DNA from: a virus
Virus record (IMG/VR): IMGVR_UViG_3300013093_001722
Location: 1-47,789 of that record
DNA length: 47,789 nt
Direction: 5' to 3' (one strand)
Below the pieces are notes generated by a model. The model saw only the letters and a program-made list of their open reading frames with translations, was not told where the DNA came from and searched no databases. How positions within the stretch are numbered: the stretch's first letter is position 1; each line of letters opens with the position of its first letter. Shown piece by piece: positions 1,385 to 33,735 of the stretch. The position numbers and the translations under genes were made by a program.

Positions 1385-4054
1385 TTACTCGAAACTGAAT
1401 AAACTACCAAAAGTATTTTCTTGTGTAGTTGATTCCAAATCCCACTCAAGCACTCCGATTAGGTTTTCCAACTTATTGTTAATAATAGTTGTTTCCATTT
1501 CAGAATGATCAAATGGTAATTCCTGGAACCATTTAGGTAAACGCATTTCGTCTACTGGATACGCAACGCTGGTATAACCTAAAGGATTGTCTTTTACCTT
1601 ACATACGATAACTTTCATACCGTCAACAATCTGTTGGCTGTATTTGTCGCCGTGCATACGTTTCAAGGTATTCCAATTGATACTTGCACGAACATGTCCA
1701 GGCATGTTAGCTTTGCCAAATTTCTTTTCTTTGGCTTCGTAGTCAGTGATGTTGTTAGCACGTTTTGGTGAACCTTTTTCCCAACCTGGTCGAGATTTAA
1801 ATTCAGTGCGGAACTCACTAATACGATCTAGAATTTCTTCTTCTTGGCTACCGTTCAAAACCTTTTCTAAGATTTCACTTAAAAAGTTCTGCATAAATTC
1901 TGGAGTATCTGAACGTTTCAAATCTAAGCCCATAGCTTTGATCTTACCTGGCTTACCTTCTACGTCCTGGCGCTTGCCTTCTTTATCGTAATAAAGAACA
2001 GCATAACGTTTCTTAGTAATGAACAAGCCTTTGATAGCAACAATCTCACGACCTGCTTTGATAACTTCGCCACGTGTCTTTGGACAGTGGAAACTATCTA
2101 ACATGAACTGAGGGAATGTAGCATTTACTTCATCGCTAATTTGATCATACAGTTGGATAACAGTATCTTTATTCCAAGGAATGAGTCCTTTTTGGATATC
2201 ATTCTTTAGTACAGGCCACGCACTGAAATATACAGAGTCAGTGTCACCATAGATAATGCTCTTACCAATATAGTCGTATTCACCTGCTACATACTCATTT
2301 ACTTTTGCGGCCATATGGCGAGCAATTCTGCGCCCTGTAAGAGTTGTGGATTGGCCAATACGCTTATCAAAGAACCTACAACCAGGGTTAAGAATAGCAC
2401 CGTATAGACTGTTAAGATTAATTTTCTTAACAAGCTGTCGCTTATCCCAATATTCTTCTTCAATTTTATTCTCCGCTTTAATTGCTTCTTTTAATTTGGC
2501 CTGCATTTCTTTACGTTCAGCATACCAACGTTTTAGTAAACCAGGAATAATACCTTCTTTTTCATAAGTGAAAATTGTACCGTTGGCCGATAACATCCAA
2601 GGTTGATTACTTTCAAATATTACATCATTGATCTGGGCACCACTTAACACATCAGTTGATCCATCTTCCCAATCAACAATAATGTCATGACTAATGTCTT
2701 TGTTCATCACAAATTCGTATTCATTAGTTCCGAACTTACCTTCCCAAGCAGCTGCGAAGCTGGCACCTTTAGCCATCTTGGCTTCAATTTCTTCTTTGGT
2801 ATAATCTGGACGTAACTGACCAACGATAGTTTCTGGACCCATGTTAAGGGCACGAATCGCTGATGGATACAGTGAATTAATATCCATTGAACCAATCCAG
2901 TCATGTAATCCTTTCTTAGGAGACGCAACATACGCACCAGCCGCTTGGTTATCTGCGGTGTCATCTCTGCGTGGACGACTTGGAACAATAAAGCCTTTAC
3001 TATGGGCTTCATTAATAATAGCCTGCTCAGTTACCGCAACAGCACCCATCGTTGTTTGTAGCAATACTGTACATTCATGAGCCAGTGTGTTTGCTAGATC
3101 AATAAATTTTAATTTCTTATCTAGATCATCAAGAAGTTGACAGTCATTGATGTTATATTCAATAAACTTTTTAAAGTCATTGTTGTATAACTGATCTAGT
3201 GTACCTTCATATTGTGTCTTGCGTTGACCTAATTCATATTCTGCGATAGCATCCAAACGATAACTGTGTCTTTCTTCATAGGTATACTTGCGATACAGTT
3301 CAAGACTATCTAAGTGTACACGACCTACTAAATCGTAAGTAACAGCGTTCTTACCAAACTTTTCGTATTCACGTTTCTTAGGAAATTGATCCCATAAACA
3401 AAAACGTCTAGTATCTTCTTTAGAGAGAACCTTAGTTACACGATTAACGGTGTACGGGATATCAAAGCCCTCTGAGTTCCAACCACTAATAACATCTGCG
3501 TCATCGATCAACTGTAAGAATGTTTCTAACAGTTCTGCTTCAGTTTCAAACAAATGTGTATTAGGAAAATCTTTAACAAGTTCTGTGGCCTGTGCCATTG
3601 TTAAAGTCTTTGGTGGAAGTGCCAAACATACCATAGTATCTAACCATTGTAGTTTTACAGCGATCGCTGTAATTGGCATGAACGCATCTTCTGGACTTGC
3701 ATATCCACGCTCTGGATCAAAGTCCACCTCAATATCGAAAAAGGCTACGTTTAGTTTTGGAGCATCTTTGTTTAGATAGTTTTCTTCTAGTGTACGGAAA
3801 ACAGCATTGATGTCCGACTCATATAACTTGTGACCGCTATGAATCTTTTGTTCTTTGATAAACTCTTTCCAATTCTTGCAGGTAACTTTGGAAAGTTGCT
3901 CACCATAAATTGATGTGTACTTACCTCGTTGGTCTGGGTAATAGAAAGTATAACGTGCGGGGAATTCTTGGAATATGCGACCTTTCTTAGGGTCACGTTC
4001 TACAACACGAACCACGTCATCATCGCGGTTCCAGATGGCATCTACATAACTCAT
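1385..4054 (-). CDS. 43: Family B replicative DNA polymerase (gp43-like)
   Basis: This 889-residue protein (T4 gp43 is 898) has the complete set of family B motifs. Exonuclease: FDIE at 106-109, GWNSEGFDIPY around 191-201, and a third motif with D304. Polymerase: motif A DINSLYPS at 391-398, motif B KKINLNSLYG at 543-552, motif C YGDTDSVY at 602-609 with its two aspartates. All catalytic acids are present, so both synthesis and proofreading should work. The extreme C-terminus ends in GSLFSFE, a hydrophobic tail like the clamp-binding peptide of T4-type polymerases, consistent with the adjacent clamp gene. A GGAG ribosome site precedes the ATG. Confidence 0.96.
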   Translation of the reverse strand: MSYVDAIWNRDDDVVRVVERDPKKGRIFQEFPARYTFYYPDQRGKYTSIYGEQLSKVTCKNWKEFIKEQKIHSGHKLYESDINAVFRTLEENYLNKDAPKLNVAFFDIEVDFDPERGYASPEDAFMPITAIAVKLQWLDTMVCLALPPKTLTMAQATELVKDFPNTHLFETEAELLETFLQLIDDADVISGWNSEGFDIPYTVNRVTKVLSKEDTRRFCLWDQFPKKREYEKFGKNAVTYDLVGRVHLDSLELYRKYTYEERHSYRLDAIAEYELGQRKTQYEGTLDQLYNNDFKKFIEYNINDCQLLDDLDKKLKFIDLANTLAHECTVLLQTTMGAVAVTEQAIINEAHSKGFIVPSRPRRDDTADNQAAGAYVASPKKGLHDWIGSMDINSLYPSAIRALNMGPETIVGQLRPDYTKEEIEAKMAKGASFAAAWEGKFGTNEYEFVMNKDISHDIIVDWEDGSTDVLSGAQINDVIFESNQPWMLSANGTIFTYEKEGIIPGLLKRWYAERKEMQAKLKEAIKAENKIEEEYWDKRQLVKKINLNSLYGAILNPGCRFFDKRIGQSTTLTGRRIARHMAAKVNEYVAGEYDYIGKSIIYGDTDSVYFSAWPVLKNDIQKGLIPWNKDTVIQLYDQISDEVNATFPQFMLDSFHCPKTRGEVIKAGREIVAIKGLFITKKRYAVLYYDKEGKRQDVEGKPGKIKAMGLDLKRSDTPEFMQNFLSEILEKVLNGSQEEEILDRISEFRTEFKSRPGWEKGSPKRANNITDYEAKEKKFGKANMPGHVRASINWNTLKRMHGDKYSQQIVDGMKVIVCKVKDNPLGYTSVAYPVDEMRLPKWFQELPFDHSEMETTIINNKLENLIGVLEWDLESTTQENTFGSLFSFE

Positions 4055-5920: not shown

Positions 5921-7039
5921 TTATCTCTTAATAAGTTTTGGCTTTTTCTTTTTTTTGGAACTAACTGATTCCGCCCCAGGACCACCAAATGCAAAACCGT
6001 TACCGTAAGGGCCAGTTCCTGAATTAGACGCTCCTCCGCTTACTCCGCTAGCTCCACTGCTTGCTGACTCGCCTAATGGTGCGGTATTTTTGATAACTTT
6101 ATTAGCGTCACCTTCCATGTATCCGCCTTCTGAACCAAACGCATACATTCCGTATTTTGGTTTCAAAACCCATTCATCGTACTCGACGTCATTGCCTGTA
6201 ACCATAATTTCATCATCGGCTTCTGCACCGACATCATCTTTAAGATGAACAAACCATTTTTTTAATTTACCGAGCTGATATGGTCCTTTATAACCTCTTT
6301 GTTTTAGTACATCGACTAGTTTTGGATGTATTCCAGATCCAGTATATCTTGTAGTTTCTTTAGCCATCATTGGTCTAGATTGGAAACGAGGATTTATCTC
6401 ATCGTTCTCTTGTACATCTGCTGCTGAACTAGGTTCTTCATCGCTGTCGCCGCTCTTGGCAATTAGTTTTCCTGAGCTACGATCTTTGCTTTTTAATTGT
6501 TGTGGTTTATGTTCTTCTTCACCTTTAAGAATCTTGCGAGCGCGAGTAAATCCGTCTACTACTTTACTTAGACTATCTTCATCTGCCTGATACTTAATAC
6601 CAATACCACCTGCGGCTTCCCAAGCAGAGATATTACTACCTCTATCATCAATTAAGATGTTAGGTGTACCATCTGCTTGTTTTGCATATTTGGCTTTGTT
6701 TGGTGTAATGATTACATCAACAGGACCTGGTTTCAATTCACGTTGAATCCAAACCTTTTTCCATTTTTCTGAGTTTTCATGATCGCCACGTAGGGGACTT
6801 GAGCACACATGATATTTTCCGTATAGTTTTACGATCATGTGTACTAGTTGATCAGCGTTAGGACACTTAGGCAGACGATTAAAGAAATCAGTACCTACCA
6901 TTTTGTCTAGTGTAGGATCTGTTTTTGCTGGGGGGATATCTCTGTAGTTGCCGTTTTCAACGCCGGCAAGTTTAGCATACTCTGTAAAAAAGTCTGCTAC
7001 TACTCCGTCTAGGTCTAAGTATACTTCTGGTTTACTCAT
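5921..7039 (-). CDS. HAD-family 5'(3')-nucleotidase domain fused to a second domain and basic tail
   Basis: Residues 1-170 are a HAD phosphatase of the 5'(3')-deoxyribonucleotidase type: DLDGVVADF with nucleophile D9 and acid D11, CSSPLRGD (motif II), a lysine around NKAKYA (motif III) and LIDDRGSN (motif IV). Known members dephosphorylate (deoxy)nucleoside monophosphates. Residues 175-225 are a polar linker; 225-310 form a second small domain (KWFVHLKDD, EYDEWVLKP) I do not recognise; the end is Gly/Ser-rich and finishes in KKKKKPKLIKR. Such a fused, basic-tailed form is unusual for a nucleotidase. The gene overlaps the next one by ATGA-type coupling. Confidence 0.82.
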   Translation of the reverse strand: MSKPEVYLDLDGVVADFFTEYAKLAGVENGNYRDIPPAKTDPTLDKMVGTDFFNRLPKCPNADQLVHMIVKLYGKYHVCSSPLRGDHENSEKWKKVWIQRELKPGPVDVIITPNKAKYAKQADGTPNILIDDRGSNISAWEAAGGIGIKYQADEDSLSKVVDGFTRARKILKGEEEHKPQQLKSKDRSSGKLIAKSGDSDEEPSSAADVQENDEINPRFQSRPMMAKETTRYTGSGIHPKLVDVLKQRGYKGPYQLGKLKKWFVHLKDDVGAEADDEIMVTGNDVEYDEWVLKPKYGMYAFGSEGGYMEGDANKVIKNTAPLGESASSGASGVSGGASNSGTGPYGNGFAFGGPGAESVSSKKKKKPKLIKR

Positions 7040-7428
7040 TTTTTACTTTTCTTTTCTTTCGTTGGTTTCATCCAGTTTGCTACTGGACTAGTTGTACCTA
7101 CATCGCTTTCCTCACTAGAACCAGGAGGAGATAATTTTGTATGCCTTGCTTCTTTGCCGAATGCTTTTTCAGCTTGATCAATAATAGCAGCATCGCCTTT
7201 TGAATATGCAACTGTAACTAACGCTTGACCTGCAGGACCATCACGGTCTGGTTGGTGTTCATAATCGTCGACACCATTTGCGCCAGCTAAAAAGTGTGCG
7301 GAAAAACGCCATGGGTGATATGGACTAGAGTTATCTAGATTTGGATGACTACGCATGCCAGGAGTAGCAGATTGCTGATTCGCAGGAATCTTGTTTACTT
7401 TTTCACTTATGAATTCTCTAGCTCTCAT
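7036..7428 (-). CDS. Small protein with capsid-targeting-like N-terminus
   Basis: The 130-residue product begins MRAREFISE, followed by Lys. This resembles the N-terminal capsid-targeting peptide of T4 internal proteins (MKTYQEFIAE), after whose final Glu the T4 prohead protease cuts in an I/L-x-E context. The remainder (DYEHQPDRDGPAGQALVTVAYSKGD.. and a helix around AIIDQAEKAFG) is a small unknown domain, and it ends in a Lys-rich tail. A sister N-terminus, MRASEFITE, is found in the gene two places upstream. I infer an internal head protein that may enter the host with DNA; the family itself is unknown to me. Confidence 0.72.
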   Translation of the reverse strand: MRAREFISEKVNKIPANQQSATPGMRSHPNLDNSSPYHPWRFSAHFLAGANGVDDYEHQPDRDGPAGQALVTVAYSKGDAAIIDQAEKAFGKEARHTKLSPPGSSEESDVGTTSPVANWMKPTKEKKSKK

Positions 7429-7749
7429 TTACTTTCCCACAGGCTTTTCGCCAGTTAAAAATGGTTTACTAAACCATAGTTTAATATATTCAGGAGATCC
7501 TGGTTTAATATTATTATCTTTCATCAGCTGAACTTTTTCAGCCGCTGTTGTTGAAACATTACTACCTTTATTTATTTCCTTGTTGTGCTGTGCGGTTTTG
7601 GCGCGATATTCCTGTAATCGTGCTTCACCACCAAGCCCTGCTAGGTATTGCACTACCTTTAGCTCGTGTATAGGATCGTCTGGTGCAAGATATGCGTCAT
7701 TATCGCTATCCTGCGGAAGATGATCAGATGTTATATAGTATTGTTTCAT
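7429..7749 (-). CDS. Hypothetical protein
   Basis: A 106-residue, soluble, helix-rich protein with no catalytic motif, signal peptide or membrane segment that I can recognise. The N-terminal 30 residues are rich in Asp and Pro, the middle carries a helix with LAGLGGEARLQEYRAK, and the C-terminus is mixed. It starts with an ATGA overlap to the upstream basic protein gene and ends one base before the start of the next gene, so all three should be translated together. Its place in the cluster of capsid-targeting-like proteins is the only functional hint. Confidence 0.68.
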   Translation of the reverse strand: MKQYYITSDHLPQDSDNDAYLAPDDPIHELKVVQYLAGLGGEARLQEYRAKTAQHNKEINKGSNVSTTAAEKVQLMKDNNIKPGSPEYIKLWFSKPFLTGEKPVGK

Positions 7750-8117
7750 AAAATTTGTTTTAACTTATTGATCATTTGTTCACCTTCAATGATCATTTGT
7801 TGCATTTGTTCAATACTTTCACAGTTCCATTTACGCAGAGATTTATTAATACGGCTATTTGGATCTCGTTTAGTTTTTGCTCCAGTGCGGTGTTTCTTCA
7901 TACCTTTCATACGAGCACAAAAGCTCTTACGGCGCTTGCTGGCCTTGCTACCTTTCTTTAACTTACTAGGTTTAGTAGTTACGGCTGTTTGTAAATGGCT
8001 ACCTGGATGTTCTCTGCGATAACTAGCGACACCTTTTTTGTTTAAGCCGCCGTTCTTATTCTTACCGCTAGATTTTTGCCAAGCAGCTGATTCAGTTATA
8101 AATTCACTCGCTCTCAT
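7746..8117 (-). CDS. Basic DUF6321-like protein with capsid-targeting-like N-terminus
   Basis: The 123-residue protein begins MRASEFITE followed by Ser, matching the I/L-x-E pattern of T4 prohead-protease sites. The body is very basic: GGLNKKGVASYRREHPGS, then KLKKGSKASKRRKSFCARMKG, a layout I recall for DUF6321 domains of phage proteins (Gly-Gly-Leu, SYRREHPGS and RRKSFCARM blocks). The C-terminus is an amphipathic helix. Function is unknown. Charge and N-terminus suggest a DNA-associated protein packaged in the head. It overlaps the giant multi-domain gene upstream and the small gene downstream by ATGA junctions. Confidence 0.75.
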   Translation of the reverse strand: MRASEFITESAAWQKSSGKNKNGGLNKKGVASYRREHPGSHLQTAVTTKPSKLKKGSKASKRRKSFCARMKGMKKHRTGAKTKRDPNSRINKSLRKWNCESIEQMQQMIIEGEQMINKLKQIL

Positions 8118-11100
8118 TTCTTTGCCTTGCCTGCTTTCATATTAGCTAACCAATGTGCCATGCGAGCCTTTTCGCCTGTGCTATGTTTAGCTGTCTTTCT
8201 TAAATCACTAACACTTGCTTTGGTATTAACACCACTACGTTTTGCCAAACCTTTACGTCCAGGATTTTTACCATCTGCAAAGTTTTCAAGTAATTTGCTA
8301 ACAGCATTGGAAATCTCATCTTCCCACGCTTCACCTATTTTAACACAATTATTAACTCTTGTCCCACCTTTCATTTTGGTGCCTTGCTTGCGATAACCTT
8401 TCCAACATTTAGGATCTAGTCGCTGATCTTCGTCAACACCTTTTTCTTTCTTTTTAGCGATAGCGATAGCAGCCTGTTGTGCAGCATTGGCGGCTTCTGT
8501 TTTTGCTTTTTTCTGTTTAGGGAAAAATGCTTTCAATTCTTTGTTTAATGTATTTGGCTTAACATCAACAGTTGTATTCTGTGCTGTAACAGTACCGACT
8601 CCTGCACATTCTGTTTCTACACTTTCTGCAGAGCCACCGACTAGGTCACCTGCACGAGCGCCACGCTTTTGATTGCGTAGTTGACCTGCTGTACCTAACT
8701 TGTTTTTCTTGCTACCAGCAAATGCACTAGCTGGCAACATTTTTTCGTCAATGTTTTTATCAATGCCACGACTACGAACACCGCCTCTACGTCTTTGTTT
8801 GGCTAACTCTGCTAGTGCGTGTTCAATCTCGTCAATGTTCATTTGTAGTTCTTTAAAATGACGAGTGATGCTTTGCCATTCCATTGGACTTGCTGTTTGT
8901 GCTCGAGTCGCTAGATCTTTTAACTGTCCGCTTGCTCTTAACATACGATCTTTTAATGCAGCAGGATTTGATTTATGATGGATCATCGGATTCATTGGAT
9001 CAGGATCGTGTGGATTAGGTCCAATCGCTTCCCAAGGCATGTGACTCATTGATACATAACTACCGCCACCTACTGGCTCTTTTTTAATTTCTGCTGTACC
9101 ACCATCTACGCTTTCTGCTTGCGGTTCTTTAGGTGCTACTAGTGCATTTAAAACACGACCTGGTTTTGGTTTAGCAAGACCTTTAGGACCGTAATTAATT
9201 GCATAGTCATCGTCATTCTTTGGCATATTTGTTTTTACTCCGCTTGGACTAGTGTGTGGTTCACCTAGGCCCATTCCTTTACGTGTTAAATCCATTAGAT
9301 GCTTAATCCATTCAGCACCTAATTTTTTAACATCGAACCCTTGTTCCCAAACTTTTAATTGTTCTTCTGGAGTCGCATTAACATCTTTTAAAATATTACG
9401 CAACTTAGTAAAGCTCATTCCGGTGCCACGCGGTGTCGCTTCTAATTTAACATTAACATGTTCATATCCTGGGAACTTGTTAACAGCTTTCATCAGTGCG
9501 CCAGCGATAGGCATATCTTTTTGATCCTCACCTACCATAATAACAATATTATCGTAACGTGGAGGTTTGCCTGGTAACGGATTGATTAATTCGTGTTTGA
9601 TCTTTTGTAGTAGTGTACCACCTTCTTGAACTGTGCTGATGTTATCGGCATATTCAGGATACATCTTGTGCCATGTTTCTACTTTAGTAGCTGGAGGAAT
9701 TGGATCATTTTTACCTACAGCATTACCAATAAACAAATAAGGATCACCACCTAATTGTTTTGCTTTGTTAATTGTATAGTTAAACAGTTCTTCGTGACCT
9801 TTATGGCCAACAAAACTACCAATAGCAACTACAGCGGTCTTCGATTCACCGCGTGGACGTTCTGTACGAGCATTAGCCATAGCATCTTTCTTAGCCTGTA
9901 TAACATCACGTTGTTCTTGACTAGTAACTTTAATAGGACCAAGGCGACTGTTAATAACAATACCTTCGTAATTCTTACCTAATAAATCTTTACCAACAAT
10001 ATTTGGATCTTCAATGATTGCTTTTTCAAGAGCAAGTTTAACTGGCTCAAGTGCGGCCTTAACTTCTGCGGCTTGATCACGTTTCTTGCTTGCTAACATA
10101 GCCTTAAACTGTGCTATGTTTTCCATAGGAGGTACAAGTGCTGTAACATCTAACGCTTCATTCTGTGTTAGGCTGTTGTCAATAAACATTACACTACCTG
10201 CTTTACCTACTTTAGTTAATTGTTTAATAAACTTATCTGAATCAGGTAGATCTTCGCCTGTGTCGCCTTCTACTACACGGAAAGGAACTAGGGCTAGTTG
10301 CACACCATCTGGTAGTTTGTCATAGTGTATGCCAACAAACTTTAATTTGCCTTCTGGAGTTTCTGTAGCGAATGGAAGATATAATACTTCGCAAGTTACT
10401 TGTTTGTTGATTAAGAAATCTTTACCTAGTTTGCTATCTACTAATTTAATAGCATCCATCATTTCATTAAACAAGTCATCAAACATTTGAGCACGACCTA
10501 GTATATCTGGATCAGTGGTTCCTTTTTGTTGATGATATTTTACAAAACTTGCTTCATAGCGCGGCTCTGTGCGGCTAGTACCCATGAAAGGTTTGCCTTC
10601 TGCATTTTTACCAAAGCGTCCACCAAAGCCGTCTACTTTAACATTAAGTGGAATATTCTTTAATTCAAACTTACCATTACCTTGATGTAGTTCATCTAAT
10701 AAATCTAAAAAGTCTGCTGACTTTAAATCACGTAAATGCGGCATGCCTTTACGTAGTTGTGCTTTAACTTGTGGTTGTTCAGGATCTGCTTCGTTTAAAA
10801 TAGATTCTGCCATTGGTTGTTTTTTAACTCTAAAAGCATCTTCATATGCTTTGCTCATTTCAACAGCGTGTTTTCTAAATCCTTGAGGATCAGTCATCTT
10901 TAGTCTTTCAACCATAAGATCAATAGCTGCGAACTTTGCTTCACGATCACTTGCAGGATCGTTTTTAGTAATCATCTGTGAGCCCGGCTCAAAACAAATG
11001 TCTAAGAAACGATTAGCAACTTCTTGACGTTGTTGATCATCAAGATATTTGTTTGCTAATTGTATAGTACCTTGGAAACTGTTTAGTAATTCAAGGTCAT

Positions 11101-12379
11101 TGCCTTTTGGTTTACGATCAAAGTAGATCTCAAACTGTTGTGCTAGATTTTGTATGTAATCTCTTTGGTTAGGAGGTAGCTCCTGCATAACAGGAATGCC
11201 ATCTTTCATCATTGGCTCACCTGTTGTAGGATCGATATAAGGCTTATACTTGGCACTTACACCACCACCTTGACCACCTGCTACAGCAAAACTATAATCA
11301 GCATCTACAACAGGCTGATCGCTAATCTTTGTACTCTTCTTAAGTACACGAGCAACGTATTTTTCACTAGTCTTAGCGTATGGTAATGCACGGTCTATGT
11401 ATTTGTGGAATACACCCTTAACACCTGCTTCAACGTCCGACCAGTCTGAACTATGACTGTATGAATACCACTCGTCTGGAGCATTAGTCTTAGGATCATA
11501 ACGACCAAACTCAAAGTCAATCTGTACTTTAACAGGTGGATCTTGTAGTTGGAACAGTCCAGAGAACTGATTATTACCTGGTTTGAATCCTAAGAACTTG
11601 GCTGTACCTACTTGTTTGCCAACAATAGATGTTAAGTATTGCTGTACTTGTGGTTCTAATTCTTTATCGCATTGTGTATCAATGTCACCTACTTTAGGTT
11701 TCTTAGCAACAAACTGTTCGTCTGGAATGCCTTTAACATTGAAGAAGTGTAATGAGCTACCACTTAGGAATGTACCAGCTTTTATCAGCTGAGGACTCCA
11801 TAATGGTTGATTATACTGTGCTTGGAAAGACGCATTGATGTCTTGTAGTAACTTGTTTAATACACCGACCATGAAACTACGGTTGTGTACTTTTAATTCT
11901 ATAGTATCTGCTTGATGAGATTGACCTGGTTGATCAACATCAGGTACTTCTAAATTACCACCTTCCATAATGGATTGGTATTTTAAGTATTCTGGGTATT
12001 GCTTATTGAAGTGGCGCATAACAATACCAGCCATTTCATTCGCTTTGTTTTCTTCTGGGCTACCTGTTTCTGGACTGATTTCGATATGCTCGCTATCTTG
12101 TAGGGCATGTGTTAGCTCGTGAGCTAATGTTCTCAGTGCATCAACAGGTTGACGATTAGCAACTGCTAGTTCTAAAGTATAAGTGTCGTTATAAAAACGA
12201 CCCATAGTTGGTTGATCGCCGTGTGCTAGTGTTTTTTTAAGAACGATAGTGGGAAGTTTTTCTAGACCAATTATCTTTTTAGCAAGGGGCAAGAACTTCT
12301 TTAATATATCTTTGAATTCATCAACAGTGATGGCTTCATTAATTTGTTCTTTAGGTTGGAATAAACTATTCAAAAGCAT
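8114..12379 (-). CDS. 1421-residue multi-enzyme protein: metallopeptidase-like, pol-beta NTase, ligase-type NTase and HxGH nucleotidylyltransferase
   Basis: Four modules are visible in order. (1) Residues 40-130: HELTH at 88-92 with E115, a zinc-metallopeptidase-like HExxH site. (2) Residues 160-345: a pol-beta-type nucleotidyltransferase pattern, SGSS at 206-209, GDIDTQ at 231-236 (D232, D234) and a third acid D288. (3) Residues 570-825: a ligase-type covalent nucleotidyltransferase, KVDG at 581-584 (motif I lysine K581), E664 (motif III-like), YEGIV at 804-808 and IKV at 816-818 (motifs IV and V). (4) Residues 848-1000: nucleotidylyltransferase with HKGH 859-862 and SFTKLR 989-994. The C-terminal 350 residues are basic and disordered, with a segment DPKCWKGYRKQGTK I recall in other phage proteins. 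Possible prohead-protease sites are INE/A at 13-16 and ILNE/A at 527-531. The substrates are unknown. I infer a head-packaged polyprotein for nucleic-acid or cofactor processing. Confidence 0.85.
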   Translation of the reverse strand: MLLNSLFQPKEQINEAITVDEFKDILKKFLPLAKKIIGLEKLPTIVLKKTLAHGDQPTMGRFYNDTYTLELAVANRQPVDALRTLAHELTHALQDSEHIEISPETGSPEENKANEMAGIVMRHFNKQYPEYLKYQSIMEGGNLEVPDVDQPGQSHQADTIELKVHNRSFMVGVLNKLLQDINASFQAQYNQPLWSPQLIKAGTFLSGSSLHFFNVKGIPDEQFVAKKPKVGDIDTQCDKELEPQVQQYLTSIVGKQVGTAKFLGFKPGNNQFSGLFQLQDPPVKVQIDFEFGRYDPKTNAPDEWYSYSHSSDWSDVEAGVKGVFHKYIDRALPYAKTSEKYVARVLKKSTKISDQPVVDADYSFAVAGGQGGGVSAKYKPYIDPTTGEPMMKDGIPVMQELPPNQRDYIQNLAQQFEIYFDRKPKGNDLELLNSFQGTIQLANKYLDDQQRQEVANRFLDICFEPGSQMITKNDPASDREAKFAAIDLMVERLKMTDPQGFRKHAVEMSKAYEDAFRVKKQPMAESILNEADPEQPQVKAQLRKGMPHLRDLKSADFLDLLDELHQGNGKFELKNIPLNVKVDGFGGRFGKNAEGKPFMGTSRTEPRYEASFVKYHQQKGTTDPDILGRAQMFDDLFNEMMDAIKLVDSKLGKDFLINKQVTCEVLYLPFATETPEGKLKFVGIHYDKLPDGVQLALVPFRVVEGDTGEDLPDSDKFIKQLTKVGKAGSVMFIDNSLTQNEALDVTALVPPMENIAQFKAMLASKKRDQAAEVKAALEPVKLALEKAIIEDPNIVGKDLLGKNYEGIVINSRLGPIKVTSQEQRDVIQAKKDAMANARTERPRGESKTAVVAIGSFVGHKGHEELFNYTINKAKQLGGDPYLFIGNAVGKNDPIPPATKVETWHKMYPEYADNISTVQEGGTLLQKIKHELINPLPGKPPRYDNIVIMVGEDQKDMPIAGALMKAVNKFPGYEHVNVKLEATPRGTGMSFTKLRNILKDVNATPEEQLKVWEQGFDVKKLGAEWIKHLMDLTRKGMGLGEPHTSPSGVKTNMPKNDDDYAINYGPKGLAKPKPGRVLNALVAPKEPQAESVDGGTAEIKKEPVGGGSYVSMSHMPWEAIGPNPHDPDPMNPMIHHKSNPAALKDRMLRASGQLKDLATRAQTASPMEWQSITRHFKELQMNIDEIEHALAELAKQRRRGGVRSRGIDKNIDEKMLPASAFAGSKKNKLGTAGQLRNQKRGARAGDLVGGSAESVETECAGVGTVTAQNTTVDVKPNTLNKELKAFFPKQKKAKTEAANAAQQAAIAIAKKKEKGVDEDQRLDPKCWKGYRKQGTKMKGGTRVNNCVKIGEAWEDEISNAVSKLLENFADGKNPGRKGLAKRSGVNTKASVSDLRKTAKHSTGEKARMAHWLANMKAGKAKK

Positions 12380-12380
12380 A

Positions 12381-12779
12381 TTAGTGGCCTAACTTATATT
12401 CGCCTTTAATGATATCTTTATGATAGTGTTCTGCACAACGTCTGCATAACGTTTTCATAAATTCTTGATTAAATGTTTCTTTAGGATCACCAGGTACATG
12501 ATGTTGTTCAAAGTACCTAATACAGCCTTCCTTAACCATTGGTAGCCAGTGTTTCCAATCTTTAGTACTATCGGATTTGTCTGCGCTGTGTGCAGCCTTA
12601 AGCTCTTTAGCCTTAGGCATAAAGTGCTGTTTATGTAGATCATCGTGATCGATTATAAACCAAAAAAGGTCATCTGCAAGATGCTGTTCTTCTTCTTGAT
12701 TTAATGTAGAAGGATCTTTATCTTTATCCTCTGGATTAACACTTCGATCAATTTTGCCAAAAAATTCGTATAGTTTCAT
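12381..12779 (-). CDS. Hypothetical protein, His/Cys-containing C-terminus
   Basis: The 132-residue product starts MKLYEFFGK, a weak echo of the targeting-like N-termini in this cluster but without the I/L-x-E cut site. The middle is helical and acidic, and the C-terminus has LCRRCAEHYHKD, whose two Cys and two His might bind a metal. I recall proteins with this C-terminal pattern in T4-like phages but no function. It ends one base before the giant multi-enzyme gene and probably heads that operon. An ACTAAATA motif about 35 bases upstream of its ATG could be its promoter; I see no clear ribosome site. Confidence 0.72.
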   Translation of the reverse strand: MKLYEFFGKIDRSVNPEDKDKDPSTLNQEEEQHLADDLFWFIIDHDDLHKQHFMPKAKELKAAHSADKSDSTKDWKHWLPMVKEGCIRYFEQHHVPGDPKETFNQEFMKTLCRRCAEHYHKDIIKGEYKLGH

Positions 12780-13345: not shown

Positions 13346-13982
13346 CTTGTGTTTTTTTAACATATTCACCTAAAAACATAGTAATCATGCTTAGGTTAGG
13401 GCCATCTACCACATAAAGGAACGGGTCTTGTATCCAATTTCTTTTTCCAGCCAACCAAAAATGTGTATTCTTAGCCATTTTAACTTGTTCAGAATAGTGT
13501 TCTAACCATGTAGCAAAGTTAGATCTAACATTTTGGGGCATACGTTCACGGAGGTATACCTTGTACTTGTATTTGTTATAAGGCAATCGATCACAAAGAC
13601 GGTACCTACTTTTTTCTTGAAGTATCTTTAAATCTTCTTCGCTAGCAGGTTCGGTTATACTTACAACCCACGGTGACATTTCTGTACACATTTTTTTGTA
13701 TAACTCGTAGTCGTCAGTATAGAAACTACAAGTATCGCCTTCAAATCTAAGTTGTCCTGCAGAATTTAAGAATTCTGTAGAATCATAGATATATTTGTGT
13801 AGTTTTAATTTTTGATCTTCAGATAGTTGCTTACGGACCCATAATGGTTGCCATGTATTCGTGCAAATATCAATAGTACGGCTAATGCCCCACTCTTTGA
13901 TTAAATGAGCTTTTGGGGCATTAGTTTCTACTTTATAAGGCCATTTTTTAAAAAATAGTTTATTCGTTTGATAAACTTTCAT
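13320..13982 (-). CDS. Hypothetical protein coupled to clpA
   Basis: The frame extends upstream into clpA, but the ATG at 13980-13982 is preceded by a purine-rich GAAGAAG site and gives a 220-residue protein that overlaps the clpA end by 23 bases, so I take that start. The product is rich in aromatic and basic residues (KLFFKKWPYKVE, YNKYKYKVYL, LAGKRNWIQDPFLYVVDGPN) and has no recognised motif, signal peptide or membrane segment. The composition suggests binding to nucleic acid or to another phage protein. It is transcribed after dnaJ, def and clpA, so a role with the protease or an early takeover role is possible, but that is position only. Confidence 0.72.
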   Translation of the reverse strand: MKVYQTNKLFFKKWPYKVETNAPKAHLIKEWGISRTIDICTNTWQPLWVRKQLSEDQKLKLHKYIYDSTEFLNSAGQLRFEGDTCSFYTDDYELYKKMCTEMSPWVVSITEPASEEDLKILQEKSRYRLCDRLPYNKYKYKVYLRERMPQNVRSNFATWLEHYSEQVKMAKNTHFWLAGKRNWIQDPFLYVVDGPNLSMITMFLGEYVKKTQEFVLRDIQ

Positions 13983-16239
13983 CTTCAACTTCTTCGATGT
14001 TAGCTTTTTCAACTGGCAATATGTCAGCAAACTTGAAACTAAATTTATCGTCCTCGGCAGTGATTTCAACAACTCCGCCGTTGACTAACCTTCCAAATAG
14101 AATTTCTTTACTTAACGGTTTCTTGATATGTTCATCAATAGCACGAGCTAATGGACGAGCACCCATCTTCTTGTTAAAGCCTTTCTTGATTAGCAATTCA
14201 ACAGCGTCTGTATCTGGTTTAACAAACACATTCTTATCTTTGATCTGCACATTAAGTTCGTCAACGAATTTCTTAACGATCCTAATCATTACAACATGAT
14301 CTAATTTACCAAACTGGATAACACCGTCTAAACGATTGCGGAACTCTGGTTTGAAGAACGAATTAACAGCATTGTTAATTTCGCCGTCTTTATCAATGCT
14401 ACCAAATCCAATACCGTTCTTTTCAGCATCACTTGCACCTAAGTTTGAAGTTAGGATAACGATAGCGTTACGAGCATCTGCTTTCTTACCATTAGATCCT
14501 GTTACAAAGCCATTGTCCATCAATCCTAACAATACGTTGCTTACACTTGGATGTGCTTTTTCAATTTCGTCTAATAACAAGATACAGTTTGGGTGTTCTT
14601 GTAGTTTAGTAACAAGTTGACCTGCATTATCCTCAAAGCCAACATAGCCCGGAGGAGCACCAATGAACTTGGCAACAGAGTGTTGTTCTTGGAACTCACT
14701 CATATCAAATCGTACAAGTTGTACTCCCATTGATTCTGCCAATACTTTTGCTGTCTCAGTCTTACCACAGCCCGTAGGACCTACGAACAAGAAGTTTCCA
14801 ACTGGCTTGTTGATAGATTTTAATCCTGCTTGTGCGATATAAATTTTGTCTAACAAAATATCAATCGCTTTTTCTTGGCCAAACACTTTACCACGCATGT
14901 TCTTATCAAGGTCACGCAGGTTTTTATTTTCTTTTGATGCAACTTGTTCTGTTGGAAGATTTGCGATCTTAGATACTTCAAAAACGATTTCATCATGATC
15001 AACAATGCCACCTTCCTCGTCACGTACTTTAAAACGAGCAGATGCACAATCAATCAAATCAATAGCTTTGTCTGGTAAGTGCTTATCTGGCATATACTTG
15101 ATACTATATTTGACAGCATCAATGATCGCTTGATTAGTGATCTTAACATTATGATGTTTTTCGTAATACTTCTTAAGACCTTTAAGGATCTTAATAGCTG
15201 TTGCTTCGCTTGGCTCGTCAATCACAACACGTTGGAAACGGCGCATCAATGCACGATCCTTTTCAAAGTGCTTACGATATTCGTCCCATGTAGTCGACGC
15301 AACAACTTTAATAGTGCCTTTGCCTAGTGCAGGTTTCAGCATATTAGCCATATCGTTTGAACTACCGCTTACAGCACCTGCACCGTTAATCATGTGTGCT
15401 TCGTCAATAAACAAGATGCAATTCTTTTTCTTTTCAAGAGCGTTGATAACCATCTTCAAGCGTTCTTCAAAATCTCCGCGATACTTACTGCCAGCAAGCA
15501 TAGCTGAGATATCTAATGCGTACACGGTATGGTCAGCAATAAATTTAGGAACCTTGCCTTCAACGATGTTACGTGCAAGACCTTCAGCAATCGCTGTCTT
15601 ACCTACACCAGGATCGCCAATCATCATGACGTTGCATTTGTTTCTACGTGCAAGAACCAATTGCATTTCTTCAATTTCTTTTTCACGACCAATAACTGGA
15701 TCAATTTTCTTCTGCTTAACTTTGTTATTAAGGTTAGTACAGAATTGAACCAACATACGTTCAAGTTGGGTAGAATTTACATCTTCTGGAAGATTTTCTG
15801 AAGATGTCTTTTCTTGTCCAATATAGTCAATGAACGCATCTTTGTCAATTTTTGCCTGACGCATAAAATGTGCGGCATGACTTTTCTTTTCAGCAAACAT
15901 ACTGATGAAGCAATCAACAGGACTGATAGTTGAACGACCGCTAAACAACACTTGTGTAAACGCACGATTTAACATACGTTCCATTGAGTGTGTTTTCTTA
16001 GGACGCTGATTTAAATCTTCTACAACAATTTCAGTTAGCTTTGTTGCAATATATGTTTCTAGGTTAGTTTTAAGAGATTCAAGATCTGCACCAAAGTCGC
16101 CCAGCAACTGTTCAAATTTTGAATCAATGATTAAACTGTATAAGAAGTGTTCTAACGTAATATACTCGTGTTTGTTTTTTGCGGCAATTTTAACAGCACG
16201 ATCAAATACAGCTTCTAAATCGCTATTTGGTTCTAACAT
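13960..16239 (-). CDS. clpA: ClpA-type AAA+ unfoldase
   Basis: At 759 residues it matches E. coli ClpA (758). It has an N-terminal Clp repeat domain (1-140) and two AAA+ modules: Walker A GDPGVGKT 208-215 with Walker B ILFIDEAH 275-282, and Walker A GPTGCGKT 487-494 with Walker B ILLLDEIE 553-560. Residues 610-612 are IGF, in the position of the IGL/IGF loop by which ClpA and ClpX dock on ClpP. A ClpP gene is present at 46078-46713, so the phage probably forms its own ClpAP or recruits host ClpP. ClpB-type middle coils are absent. An AAGGA site precedes the ATG, which follows def by one base. Confidence 0.95.
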   Translation of the reverse strand: MLEPNSDLEAVFDRAVKIAAKNKHEYITLEHFLYSLIIDSKFEQLLGDFGADLESLKTNLETYIATKLTEIVVEDLNQRPKKTHSMERMLNRAFTQVLFSGRSTISPVDCFISMFAEKKSHAAHFMRQAKIDKDAFIDYIGQEKTSSENLPEDVNSTQLERMLVQFCTNLNNKVKQKKIDPVIGREKEIEEMQLVLARRNKCNVMMIGDPGVGKTAIAEGLARNIVEGKVPKFIADHTVYALDISAMLAGSKYRGDFEERLKMVINALEKKKNCILFIDEAHMINGAGAVSGSSNDMANMLKPALGKGTIKVVASTTWDEYRKHFEKDRALMRRFQRVVIDEPSEATAIKILKGLKKYYEKHHNVKITNQAIIDAVKYSIKYMPDKHLPDKAIDLIDCASARFKVRDEEGGIVDHDEIVFEVSKIANLPTEQVASKENKNLRDLDKNMRGKVFGQEKAIDILLDKIYIAQAGLKSINKPVGNFLFVGPTGCGKTETAKVLAESMGVQLVRFDMSEFQEQHSVAKFIGAPPGYVGFEDNAGQLVTKLQEHPNCILLLDEIEKAHPSVSNVLLGLMDNGFVTGSNGKKADARNAIVILTSNLGASDAEKNGIGFGSIDKDGEINNAVNSFFKPEFRNRLDGVIQFGKLDHVVMIRIVKKFVDELNVQIKDKNVFVKPDTDAVELLIKKGFNKKMGARPLARAIDEHIKKPLSKEILFGRLVNGGVVEITAEDDKFSFKFADILPVEKANIEEVEDESLSNE

Positions 16240-16240
16240 C

Positions 16241-16732
16241 TTATTTCCTTTTCTTTGATTTCTTAACGGCCATGGCCCACTTTAATGTACTTACTCTATC
16301 TTGAAAAACAATACCCTCTAAATGGTCTAATTCATGTAAAAAACACTTACATTCATATCCACTAAATTCTCCTTCTAGTGTTTCACCTTTAGAGTTTTGC
16401 CAACGTGCTTTAATAGCGGTAGGTCGTTTAACATTAACAAACACACCCGGAAAACTTAAACAGCCTTCTTCTAAATCTTTAACATCTTCCGTATTAGCAA
16501 CAACTACGGGATTAAAAAATGCTGTTGCATTTTCTGGGTTATCTCTATGACCCATAACAAACATTCTAGCATTGATGCCTACTTGATTAGCAGCAAGCCC
16601 AATCCCATCATATGTTAGCATGGCTTCAATCATGTCTTTTTCTAATTGTACAGGATCTGTAGTAGGATTGTCAAAGTCAAACTCTGGCATCCTTGTCCGC
16701 AAAATCTCTGCTGGAAATTTTACAATATTCAT
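16241..16732 (-). CDS. def: Peptide deformylase
   Basis: This 163-residue enzyme removes the formyl group from the N-terminal methionine of new proteins. All three signature motifs are intact: [10 protein letters not shown] (43-52), EEGCLSFPG (88-96) and HELDH (133-137), giving metal ligands C91, H133, H137 and catalytic E134. Length is near the bacterial norm and the end is a short Lys-rich tail. Phage deformylases are known from marine phages, where they are thought to act on phage or host photosystem proteins; no photosystem genes occur here. It lies between dnaJ (ATGA overlap) and clpA in one operon devoted to protein quality control. Confidence 0.96.
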
Positions 16733-17562
16733 TTAAGGTTGAGGTTTCTTAATTGTTGTTTTTGATTATCGTCTAGTTTTGGTACACGCAATTTAATCTT
16801 AACCAACAGCCGTCCACGTCTTGTTGGATCGTTAAAGTTTGGCATACCATAACCCCCTAAACTCAACACAGCATCGTGCTGGATACCTGCATCAATAACT
16901 GTTTCAAGTTGTTTACCATCTAAACTACTTACAACTACTTTAGCACCTAACAATGCATCAATGGCACTAATTTCTAAATCACGAACAAGGTCATCGCCCT
17001 GGCGTTTAAATGTAGGATGATCTTGTATATGAACATTAAGAAGAATATCACCTTTTGGTGCTGTTTGTATAGAGTCGTCCCCCATACCTGCTAATCGTAA
17101 TGTAGTGCCTTCATGTATACCTTTTGGTATACTGATATTGATAGTACGATCACGTCCACTAGGTAAAGTAATCTGTGCGACTATTTCTTTACCGTAAAAA
17201 GCATCTTCTAATGTAATAGAGGTTTGTAATTGTATTGGGCGATTGCCCATTGGTTGTCTAAATCCAAATATATCTCCAAACGGACTACGTTCAAAGAACT
17301 GTTCAAATCCGCCACCACCTGGACCAAAGTGAAATTGGAATCCGCCTGGGCCGCCTGGGCCAAATTGTGGTTGAGGATTATCGTATTCAGCACGAGCCTG
17401 TGGATCGCTAAGTGTAGCGTAGGCTTCTTGAATTTGTTGGAATTTAGCCTGATCGCCCCCGCGGTCAGGATGATGTTTCATAGCTAACGATCTATAGGCC
17501 TTTTTAATGTCCTCTTCGCTAGCGTTTTTTGGAACTCCGAGTGTTTGGTAAAAGTCAGTCAT
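16729..17562 (-). CDS. dnaJ: J-domain co-chaperone, type II (CbpA-like)
   Basis: Residues 1-65 are a J domain with the HPD tripeptide at 31-33, needed to stimulate Hsp70 ATPase. Residues 68-105 are the Gly/Phe-rich region. From 110 to 270 there is a DnaJ C-terminal substrate-binding domain, with phrases such as [13 protein letters not shown] and [21 protein letters not shown]. There is no Cys-rich zinc finger, so it is the CbpA class. It probably recruits host DnaK, since no phage Hsp70 is seen here. It is the first gene of the dnaJ-def-clpA operon and sits behind a strong sigma-70 promoter; the predicted leader of about 20 bases lacks an obvious ribosome site. Confidence 0.95.
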
Positions 17563-31239: not shown

Positions 31240-33735
31240 TTATGTATTTATTAGTGGAAAATTTACCCAATTTGTTCCAGTCCCTAAAGTTTCTACTACA
31301 ATTCTATCAGTATCAAAATCAAACTGTTGGAAACTAAACTGTCCTGTAGTAATTAGGTTATTAATTCGTGATACGATCTTAGCTGACTGTCCAGGTAAGG
31401 TATAGCACAGCGGCACCGCTTTAATAAATCCAATAGGAACACCCGTGGATTGATCTAATGTTGTTTGATATTTTGGCTGTAATCTATCATCTACTAAGAT
31501 TGTTGTGCCACTAACAACATCAATAGATTCTAATTGTGTCTGTAGATATCCAATTGATTCTGGATAGGTAGTATATGATTGCCCGTTGTAGGAATATGTT
31601 GTAGGACTTACACTTACTGATCCAGACATTTGAGAGTCGACAATACTCACATACACAATATCGTAATAAGATTTTCCATAGATATCAGTTGCTGTGATAT
31701 ATCCTACATCACCAAAGTAAAAACGTTTTTTACTTAGGAAGTTTTGTAGGGCACCAAAATATTGATCTACGGTAGCTTGCTGGATTCCTGATTCAATTAC
31801 TAATTTGATTGAACTCTGAACTCCAAAGTTTGGATCATTAGGTCTGTATAGTAATGCTGGATCAAAAACTGTTTTGTCTGTAGTGAAATTTTTGTAAGCA
31901 GTTCTCTTGTCAATACTTAAGAACGGTTTAATATATATTCTTGTATATAGATTTAAATTGTCTTCTAGGACTTTGATATATACCTGTTGAGTTACAGCAT
32001 CTAATTTATAAACGTCATTAGCTTGTACAGTAAAATACCAATTCTCGTCAATAGTAGTTGTACCACCGTCTAAGGTAAACGCACCATAGCCATAAGGAGT
32101 GCCATCGCCAGGTAATAGATCAATATGTGTCTGACTATCAAATGCGATTTGTCCTTGGATAGATCCATCGCTATTTAAAGTTAATCCATCTGGTAACTGT
32201 CCGCTTACTAAAGAATACTCTAAAGGAAACGTACTATTGGTATTAGTCGCCACAGCAGCTAACTCGCTAATTTCTCCAGGTATTAAAGTACCAAGGCTAC
32301 CTGTGGTTATGAATTGTATGCTACTTTGTATATCCCCAAGAACAGTCATGCTAAAGATTTGACTGTTAGTTGCAACACCGCCTGTGTTGATGTCTGTCTT
32401 TATTGTCTTGATCGTAAATCTATATGTCTTACTAAACGCAGGTTGGTATTGTATTCTTCCGTATAATTTTCCTGTACTTCCATCAAGAGTCAAGCCTGGC
32501 GGATGGACACTTGGAGTTCCAACATAAAATACAGTTGAGTCAGGCAAATGATCAGCTAACGGTTGATCAATGTTTAGGTAACCTTGAGTAGACCCTAGTT
32601 TAACTACTCCAGTGATAGTATATACCGTAGTTCCTGCAGTTCCGATGTAATCACTAAATCTAACTTTCATTCCTGCTATAGGAAATACAGTTGCATTTTT
32701 AAAATATATTGCTGTCTTTCCAGGAATGTTTTCTGCATCAATACCTGCATTATTAATTCTATTATCTGTTACTAACGATATTTCTGGGTTAACTGCTATG
32801 TCCCAACTGTAAGTAACTGGACCAGTTAAAGGATAAGGATCGTACTCATATAAAGAAAACACTTGTTCTTTACCTGCTCTTATAGATCCTAAATTTGAAA
32901 CACCCGCTAATTTATTTCCAAGATTATCTTGCCATAGTGGACTTAATAGATAGCCTACGCTGGTGTCAAAATCTGTTTCGTCAGATTTGATAAACGTATT
33001 ATCAACACGCAAACTATTAGGGTCAATAACTTTGATACTGAATAATCTCTTGCTGGTCGCAATACCATCTGTGACTGTAATATAAAATTGATAAATTTTA
33101 TCAATGGACGTTGGTTTAACCTGCTGAAGAACACCTTGGCTATTGTAGATCGCATGATCGTATGGATAGCCGTCATAGTTTTCGCTGTCATACCCGCCTG
33201 TATTACTTGCGCCGTAATCTAATGTTAGGAGGTCATTTACGAATCCATAGATGCGACCCGACTGTGTTAATGTTAAACCAGGAGGCAAACTACCATCATT
33301 ATCACCAATGAAATACTTTAATGTGTTTCCGTTTGTTAATACATCTGTCTGCGCTCTAACGGTATAGTCAACGAATTCTTTATTAAACGTATAATACTCG
33401 CCATTTAATCCTGCGGGAAGTGAACCAGATGAAGTCGCCCAGATTGGCTGTGTTGGTCCTTGTACTTCAATACTAAATGTTCCGTCTATTATTCCAGATG
33501 ATGTGTTAACAGCACGAATAACAAATGTTGAATCAACATCATCCGGAACTGATAGAGGAGTTCCATTAATAATACCAGTTGATGAGTTAAGATTCATCCC
33601 TGGAGGAAGACTACCACTCAATAAAGAGTAGGTAATGTTTCCAGCTGGCTGTGCCTCAACAGATACCGATGAGAATTGTCTTTCTGTGAGGGTTCCTAAA
33701 AACCCTGGAGCAAAACGCCAGGTTAATGCTGTCAT
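31240..33735 (-). CDS. Virion protein with Ig-like (He_PIG-type) repeats
   Basis: The 831-residue protein has several copies of a strand motif of the form LPPGLxLxxxGxIxG (for example SLPPGMNLNSSTGIINGTP, SLPPGLTLTQSGRIYGF, HPPGLTLDGSTGKLYG, LPDGLTLNSDGSIQGQ), typical of cadherin/He_PIG-type Ig-like domains used for surface contact. It has no signal peptide or catalytic motif, so it is probably a long tail or baseplate-attached decoration. It overlaps the large fibre gene upstream by one base and ends inside the late promoter of the next fibre, so these genes form one late block. Confidence 0.87.
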   Translation of the reverse strand: MTALTWRFAPGFLGTLTERQFSSVSVEAQPAGNITYSLLSGSLPPGMNLNSSTGIINGTPLSVPDDVDSTFVIRAVNTSSGIIDGTFSIEVQGPTQPIWATSSGSLPAGLNGEYYTFNKEFVDYTVRAQTDVLTNGNTLKYFIGDNDGSLPPGLTLTQSGRIYGFVNDLLTLDYGASNTGGYDSENYDGYPYDHAIYNSQGVLQQVKPTSIDKIYQFYITVTDGIATSKRLFSIKVIDPNSLRVDNTFIKSDETDFDTSVGYLLSPLWQDNLGNKLAGVSNLGSIRAGKEQVFSLYEYDPYPLTGPVTYSWDIAVNPEISLVTDNRINNAGIDAENIPGKTAIYFKNATVFPIAGMKVRFSDYIGTAGTTVYTITGVVKLGSTQGYLNIDQPLADHLPDSTVFYVGTPSVHPPGLTLDGSTGKLYGRIQYQPAFSKTYRFTIKTIKTDINTGGVATNSQIFSMTVLGDIQSSIQFITTGSLGTLIPGEISELAAVATNTNSTFPLEYSLVSGQLPDGLTLNSDGSIQGQIAFDSQTHIDLLPGDGTPYGYGAFTLDGGTTTIDENWYFTVQANDVYKLDAVTQQVYIKVLEDNLNLYTRIYIKPFLSIDKRTAYKNFTTDKTVFDPALLYRPNDPNFGVQSSIKLVIESGIQQATVDQYFGALQNFLSKKRFYFGDVGYITATDIYGKSYYDIVYVSIVDSQMSGSVSVSPTTYSYNGQSYTTYPESIGYLQTQLESIDVVSGTTILVDDRLQPKYQTTLDQSTGVPIGFIKAVPLCYTLPGQSAKIVSRINNLITTGQFSFQQFDFDTDRIVVETLGTGTNWVNFPLINT
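31245..31252 (-). promoter_or_regulatory. Late promoter (AATAAATA)
   Basis: AATAAATA on the minus strand, 24 bases before the ATG at 31220 and partly inside the end of the preceding gene. The leader would include AAAGGG. Confidence 0.6.

Follow-up and report, generated by a model that had tools for sequence, protein, structure and literature searches.

A T4-like phage polyprotein of nucleotidyl-transfer enzymes with predicted prohead-protease sites between its modules

In phage T4, short N-terminal propeptides called capsid-targeting sequences bring internal proteins into the head, and the prohead protease gp21 cuts after L/I-X-E (PMC9026906). The polyvalent proteins (Iyer et al., 2017) are large multi-domain phage proteins for which co-injection with the DNA is predicted (PMC5512222). 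In cyanophages, mass spectrometry has identified T4-GC190 in virions purified from S-SM1 (PMC3037559), and cytidylyltransferase/NMNAT-like proteins have also been reported from the virions of S-CREM2 and S-SCSM1; these were proposed to act on NAD, and the authors cautioned that abundant contaminants are possible (PMC10665884, PMC9602691). Finally, RNA repair by a pol-beta nucleotidyltransferase paired with a ligase-type enzyme has been described for RlaP and an ATP-grasp RNA ligase (PMC7824862). Here we describe a 1421-residue open reading frame in a 47,789-nucleotide stretch of viral DNA, the whole of which we call the window (IMG/VR record IMGVR_UViG_3300013093_001722, positions 1 to 47,789). 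We think it likely that this protein is a precursor that a T4-like phage carries in its head, that the prohead protease cuts it there and that the products are injected.

The open reading frame and its predicted cleavage sites

The open reading frame runs from 8114 to 12379 on the minus strand of the window, starts with ATG and overlaps the next gene by 4 bp. Its parts are given below, with the evidence for each in brackets; here and throughout, an arrow marks a predicted cut. NT, LIG and CT name the three nucleotidyl-transfer modules, and pLDDT is AlphaFold's predicted local distance difference test.

8114..12379, minus strand: whole open reading frame, 1421-residue polyprotein (open reading frame and relatives)
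12335..12379, minus strand: predicted capsid-targeting propeptide MLLNSLFQPKEQINE, residues 1-15, cut after I-N-E15 (disordered in the model; pattern in relatives)
11963..12334, minus strand: HExxH...E metallopeptidase module, residues 16-139, with HELTH at 87-91 and E110 (invariant residues; weak Pfam matches)
11963..11971, minus strand: predicted cleavage site I-M-E139↓GGN, new N-terminus Gly140 (low pLDDT; M-GGN starts of stand-alone proteins)
10790..11962, minus strand: pol-beta-superfamily nucleotidyltransferase NT, residues 140-530, with G207-S-S, D232-I-D234 and D288 (conservation, model, Foldseek, phrog_19290)
10790..10798, minus strand: predicted cleavage site L-N-E530↓AD at the NT/LIG boundary (linker [IL]xE enrichment; low pLDDT)
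9839..10789, minus strand: ligase-type covalent nucleotidyltransferase LIG, residues 531-847, with K581VDG, E664, E805GIV and K817 (conservation, model, Foldseek, hhalign)
9260..9838, minus strand: HxGH nucleotidylyltransferase CT, residues 848-1040, with H859KGH862 and SFTKLR at 989-994 (conservation, model, Foldseek, hhalign)
8117..9259, minus strand: variable, basic tail made up of small modules; further candidate sites follow E1212, E1317, E1350 and E1365 (phrog_4359 and phrog_22379 module matches)

Relatives were collected by scanning IMG/VR contigs and removing duplicates; they have shared ancestry, and the counts given here are not of independent events. The scans returned 79 distinct NT-LIG-CT cores, and LIG and CT are joined in all of them. 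In two contigs, L050 and L051, an inserted basic module separates NT from LIG. Xanthomonas phage X1 and Stenotrophomonas phage YB07 encode NT, LIG and CT as separate genes that lie close together in this order, with one more gene placed between those for NT and LIG; profile comparison connected NT to the X1 and YB07 genes with E 9e-35 and 2e-13, and hhalign connected LIG to them with E 4e-17 and 7e-13, respectively. No annotated phage record spans half of the 1421-residue protein in one place (the best reaches 43%, across three genes), and neither Pfam nor PHROG has a model of the fused module order.

Sites of the type cut by gp21 recur at defined places in these proteins. A short hydrophobic N-terminal peptide, MLLxELF...[ILV]xE, followed by GGN (pattern [ILV]xE↓G[GS]N), is present in 69 of the 71 complete proteins. 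The window protein begins with a short peptide ending in (L/I)xE, in the form QINE15↓A, and its peptidase is placed between this and the conserved IME139↓GGN. Stand-alone NT homologues of X1, YB07 and Vibrio phage phiKT1024 start with MGGN, exactly the residues that the predicted cleavage would expose at the predicted mature end. Ahead of LIG, [IL]xE, with A, D or E as the usual next residue, occurs in 53 of 67 cores, compared with 7.0 expected from shuffling (2000 shuffles, maximum 15), and a 70% non-redundant set gave 25 of 30 against 3.3. The same motif was found in none of the 78 LIG-CT linkers searched. The two linkers also differ in length: NT-LIG is variable (standard deviation 21, up to 140 residues with inserted modules), and LIG-CT has a standard deviation of 2.6.

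The tails are strings of variable modules, with a recurring separator, QGVAE, that appears 25 times against 0.01 expected. The broader motif [ILVM]xE[GAS] is enriched in tails (154 compared with 60 in shuffled sequences) and depleted in folded cores (50 compared with 189), a pattern absent from the D, K, Q and N control motifs. In the model of the window protein, the three main predicted sites lie in segments of pLDDT below 50, with low values at 136-140 and 523-536. Because prohead-protease-type sites flank NT and punctuate the tails, the precursor is most probably cleaved within the head. A preliminary description of this DNA had the system delivered as one polypeptide; that is probably wrong. 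Only LIG and CT have no site between them.

A protease of the expected kind accompanies the gene: 9 of the 14 large related partial contigs that carry the polyprotein gene encode a gp21-type Peptidase_S77. Their gp21-, gp22- and gp23-like neighbours bear the same type of site; the last two we take to be gp22- and gp23-like from position and sequence, given the established T4 head cluster. Small neighbouring genes bear MRAxEF[IV]xE N-termini, and [ED]F[ILVF]xE beginning at residue 5 was found in 47 of 1248 open reading frames against 0.15 expected.

The link to virions comes through CT. It matched eight phage cytidyltransferases led by P-SSM4 T4-GC190 (hhalign E 1.5e-11) and P-SSM4 T4-GC190 alone (E 5e-9). 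Ten of 12 T4-GC190-type N-termini, such as those of L187:5770-6921 and L191-L198, fit M[KR]x[FY]xxF[ILF]xE followed by A, and the T4 IPII/IPIII (internal protein) peptide MKTYQEFIAE↓A fits the same pattern; S-BM3 deviates, and the P-HM2 short form starts at the catalytic domain. In T4, residues 4 and 7 govern targeting and residues 8 and 10 govern processing (PMC9026906), and positions 4, 7, 8 and 10 are those conserved in the T4-GC190 N-termini. By this resemblance, these N-termini are likely to be the packaging signal of the virion-detected cytidyltransferase/NMNAT. In the papers searched we found no mention of the likeness between T4-GC190 and the T4 internal protein peptides.

The enzyme modules and neighbouring genes

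The preliminary description had reported four enzyme-like modules in the chain. All four sets of motifs map within the single 1421-residue protein, the active sites are intact and invariant in relatives, and two other contigs, L020 and L034, have the same order. Loss of active sites in homologues, which would have told against this assignment, was not seen in the 8, 57 and 64 sequences compared, and structure prediction with Foldseek, proposed there as a check, placed NT, LIG and CT in the expected folds. AlphaFold gave a mean pLDDT of 88.5 for the peptidase and NT together (PRO+NT) and 89.8 for LIG+CT.

The SGSS, DID and third acid noted earlier in NT correspond to residues that are invariant in 57 NT sequences (G207, S208, D232, D234 and D288), and NT matches phrog_19290 with E 1e-28. 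Its Foldseek matches to pol beta and poly(A) polymerase were modest, with E 0.007 and above, and ranked below SpoT. The GS motif, DxD, third acid and fold place NT in the pol-beta superfamily, with a fold search that is weak but consistent. Among the 57 members there was no nucleotidyltransferase Pfam match at E up to 1, which leaves membership of the RlaP family unsupported at the sequence level, and a sequence search of solved structures with NT gave nothing significant.

Of the ligase-type KVDG, EGIV and motif V lysine of LIG, K581, D583, G584, E805, G806 and K817 are invariant in 64 sequences, as is E664 (motif III); so are H859, G861 and H862 in the 64 CT sequences, within the HKGH reported together with SFTKLR. 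Foldseek grouped LIG with DNA and RNA ligases, and CT with PPAT, FAD synthetase and NMNAT. With KxDG, the motif III acid, the EG of motif IV, the motif V lysine and the fold, LIG belongs to the covalent nucleotidyltransferase superfamily; none of its 64 members matched a Pfam ligase family. Motif V lies at residue 817 and CT starts at 848, which leaves no space for an OB or RNA-ligase C-terminal domain between them, and the sealing activity of LIG is not assured. CT has the HxGH, the C-terminal S/T-x-x-R and the Rossmann-like fold of the HIGH superfamily. A viral fold search aligned S-PM2-type proteins across both LIG and CT. A scan of 84,980 prokaryote genomes contained no LIG relative and L020 had no plasmid match, so a cellular origin is unsupported.

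Two further comparisons concern the cyanophage neighbourhood. DUF6267-type proteins beside cyanophage cytidyltransferases (L017:6775-8007, L187:4857-5783) bear KWDG and are possibly unrecognised ligase-type enzymes; profile comparison of LIG with cyanophage DUF6267 was not significant, and this is a lead only. Profile comparison gave no support to a single nuclease family that would unite the X1/YB07 extra gene with the cyanophage neighbours.

The metallopeptidase is an optional passenger outside the core. H87, E88, H91 and E110, the last being the third zinc ligand, are invariant in eight peptidase relatives; the reported zinc site thus stands, as HELTH, at 87-91 and not at 88-92. Pfam gave weak M78/DUF6782 matches only, and a sequence search of solved structures nothing significant. 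The module is fused in 3 of 79 distinct cores (the window, L020 and L034) and is a separate gene in L054-56, L061, L064, L072 and cyanophage S-SRM01. Because the three fused cores, close in a quick tree, form no one firm clade, one fusion with losses or several fusions are both possible. At L064:7243-8523, by eye, a stand-alone peptidase is joined to LysM and GH19-like lysin sequence.

Among the tails, the L057 (L008) polyprotein carries an HD_4 domain (E 2e-17), which is (p)ppGpp-hydrolase-like, and those of L058 and L065 carry ParB_N (E 3e-6) and a weak GNAT match. Internal MRAKEF-type peptides occur inside the tails of L006, L010, L046 and L161, which gives the impression of an in-frame fusion of genes that each brought along a targeting peptide. 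L085 and L111 have, fused ahead of NT, a segment similar to the gene upstream of the window polyprotein (N-terminal sequence, by eye). The adjoining genes are as follows.

12381..12779, minus strand: upstream gene, MKLYEFFGK..., 132 residues (similar segment in front of NT in L085 and L111, by eye)
7746..8117, minus strand: downstream basic protein with the N-terminal targeting-type peptide MRASEFITE (phrog_727 and other matches)
7036..7428, minus strand: small protein with N-terminal MRAREFISE (open reading frame list, N-terminal motif)

Elsewhere in the window, a T4-type DNA polymerase lies at 1385-4054, nearest to those of Sinorhizobium phage Phosso and Agrobacterium phage Atu_ph07 (46-51% identity); 13960-17562 holds a ClpA-like ATPase (phrog_4871) and, close to it, a gene with a DnaJ J-domain-like start; and 33735-41108 encodes a 2457-residue tail-fibre-like protein with a weak head-closure match.

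Proposed mechanism and its alternatives

We propose the following sequence of events. The first 15 residues would act as a capsid-targeting propeptide and place the precursor in the prohead core. A gp21-type prohead protease would then cut after [I/L]xE at E15, E139 and E530, and probably also in the tail, to yield a small zinc peptidase, an NT that starts with GGN, a two-domain ligase-HxGH enzyme and small basic peptides. For these two steps the comparative sequence evidence is strong. The products would next enter the host cell with the DNA, ahead of any phage gene expression; what points to this step is the published virion mass spectrometry of CT homologues. Finally, NT and LIG-CT might act jointly on nucleic-acid ends, which we put forward tentatively. 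Most plausibly, they may mend RNA (tRNA) that host defence has broken, while CT provides or handles a nucleotide cofactor of the NAD type; the peptidase and tail modules would be interchangeable effectors. The earlier suggestion of a nucleic acid or cofactor repair system is upheld in part: the conserved association of NT, LIG and CT fits one nucleotide or nucleic-acid pathway, and the metallopeptidase falls outside the core. More generally, we lean towards the view that in a large group of T4-like phages injected effector cocktails are made as polyproteins, in which a single capsid-targeting peptide precedes interchangeable modules separated by prohead-protease sites and maturation of the capsid frees the enzymes, and with a conserved NT and LIG-CT core for nucleic-acid/NAD repair that acts before phage expression.

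Several observations weigh against this proposal. All the cleavage claims rest on comparative evidence, and the shared ancestry of the 79 cores means that the site counts are not independent. The window, a fragment of 47.8 kb, had no Peptidase_S77 match, and nor had 5 of the 14 related partial contigs. The window tail sites E1212↓K and E1317↓D are weaker than those of relatives, MLLxELF...xE is unlike the classical T4 internal protein peptide, and targeting peptides are missing from the homologues in X1 and YB07. Because NT has no Pfam match, only its fold and context link it to the known RNA-repair nucleotidyltransferases.

The main functional rival to nucleic-acid repair is NAD+ supply, in which CT, as an NMN adenylyltransferase, would restore NAD+ depleted by host defence while NT and LIG modify other targets. 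CT relatives are annotated as NMNAT/cytidyltransferase, with virion copies proposed to act on NAD; X1 and YB07 contain the motif GRFQPxHxGH; and S-SRM01 matches phrog_3462, a nicotinamide-nucleotide adenylyltransferase. However, the top sequence match of CT is FAD synthetase, its fold is common to PPAT, FAD synthetase and NMNAT and does not separate them, and the tight linkage with LIG and NT suggests a joint pathway. We regard this reading as rather unlikely.

It is improbable that the protein is made in the infected cell and works there uncut, as one multifunctional enzyme whose four domains channel a single repair or cofactor pathway, as the preliminary description suggested, with [IL]xE as coincidental surface sequence. 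Such an enzyme would account for the linkage of LIG and CT in 79 of 79 cores and for the adjacency of NT, LIG and CT as separate genes, but not for the site statistics, which distinguish the NT-LIG from the LIG-CT boundary and tails from cores. The basic modules between NT and LIG in L050 and L051, the disorder of the module boundaries in the model and the MGGN starts of stand-alone NT likewise argue for cleavage. Self-processing by the protein's own HExxH peptidase, a model proposed for zincin-containing polyvalent proteins (PMC5512222), would draw on the intact HExxH...E site in the chain; yet 76 of 79 distinct cores have no peptidase in cis and keep the same [IL]xE sites, which agree with gp21 specificity, and we consider this very improbable. 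An artefact of sequencing or assembly that joined separate genes, as the modules are in X1 and YB07, can practically be dismissed, given that 79 distinct cores have the modules in one open frame in the same order, and that three contigs share the form with four modules.

Comparison with known systems

If processing in the head is correct, head maturation would double as activation of an injected enzyme cocktail, a parallel to viral polyprotein processing that takes place within a bacteriophage capsid. Head-delivered repair by NT and LIG could then act prior to phage transcription, and CT could serve NAD supply; the three would point to a conserved nucleotidyl-transfer pathway. The [IL]xE separators and the MLLxELF, MRAxEF and MKxFxxF peptides would supply a sequence rule for head-delivered effectors in uncultivated T4-like phages, and also a packaging explanation, not given in the virion papers, for the cytidyltransferase/NMNAT that recurs in cyanophage virions.

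The X1/YB07 cluster has NT, LIG and CT homologues as neighbours in the same order, but as separate proteins with no targeting peptides and with the extra gene between NT and LIG. Cyanophage T4-GC190 is homologous to CT, virion-detected and equipped with a T4 internal protein-like peptide, whereas neither LIG nor NT is in the same chain in the cyanophages examined. Like the RlaP/ATP-grasp RNA ligase pairs, the core sets a pol-beta-fold nucleotidyltransferase beside a covalent-nucleotidyltransferase ligase; unlike them, it has an NT with no Pfam match and a LIG followed by an HxGH domain, with no OB-fold or RNA-ligase C-terminal domain.

The T4 internal head proteins and Alt have an N-terminal propeptide that ends in [I/L]xE and that gp21 removes, and they travel in the head and are injected, all of which is predicted from sequence here. 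The internal proteins are, however, small and have an N-terminal cut, whereas in the present protein several predicted sites would split the chain into several enzymes. Polyvalent proteins, as the excerpted text of PMC5512222 presents them, mix peptidase, pol-beta nucleotidyltransferase, GNAT, ParB-like and nucleotide-signalling domains; the polyproteins described here likewise join at least two domains with disparate biochemical activities in a single chain, and their tails carry HD_4, ParB_N and a weak GNAT match. In the same text, the pol-beta nucleotidyltransferase is of the minimal type, mainly from firmicute mobile elements, and processing is by an internal zincin or assemblin-like domain rather than at trans-acting prohead-protease sites; an NT-LIG-CT core and prohead-protease segmentation are not described there. 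The arrangement reported here would be a new form of a known phage strategy, that of the polyvalent and internal proteins.
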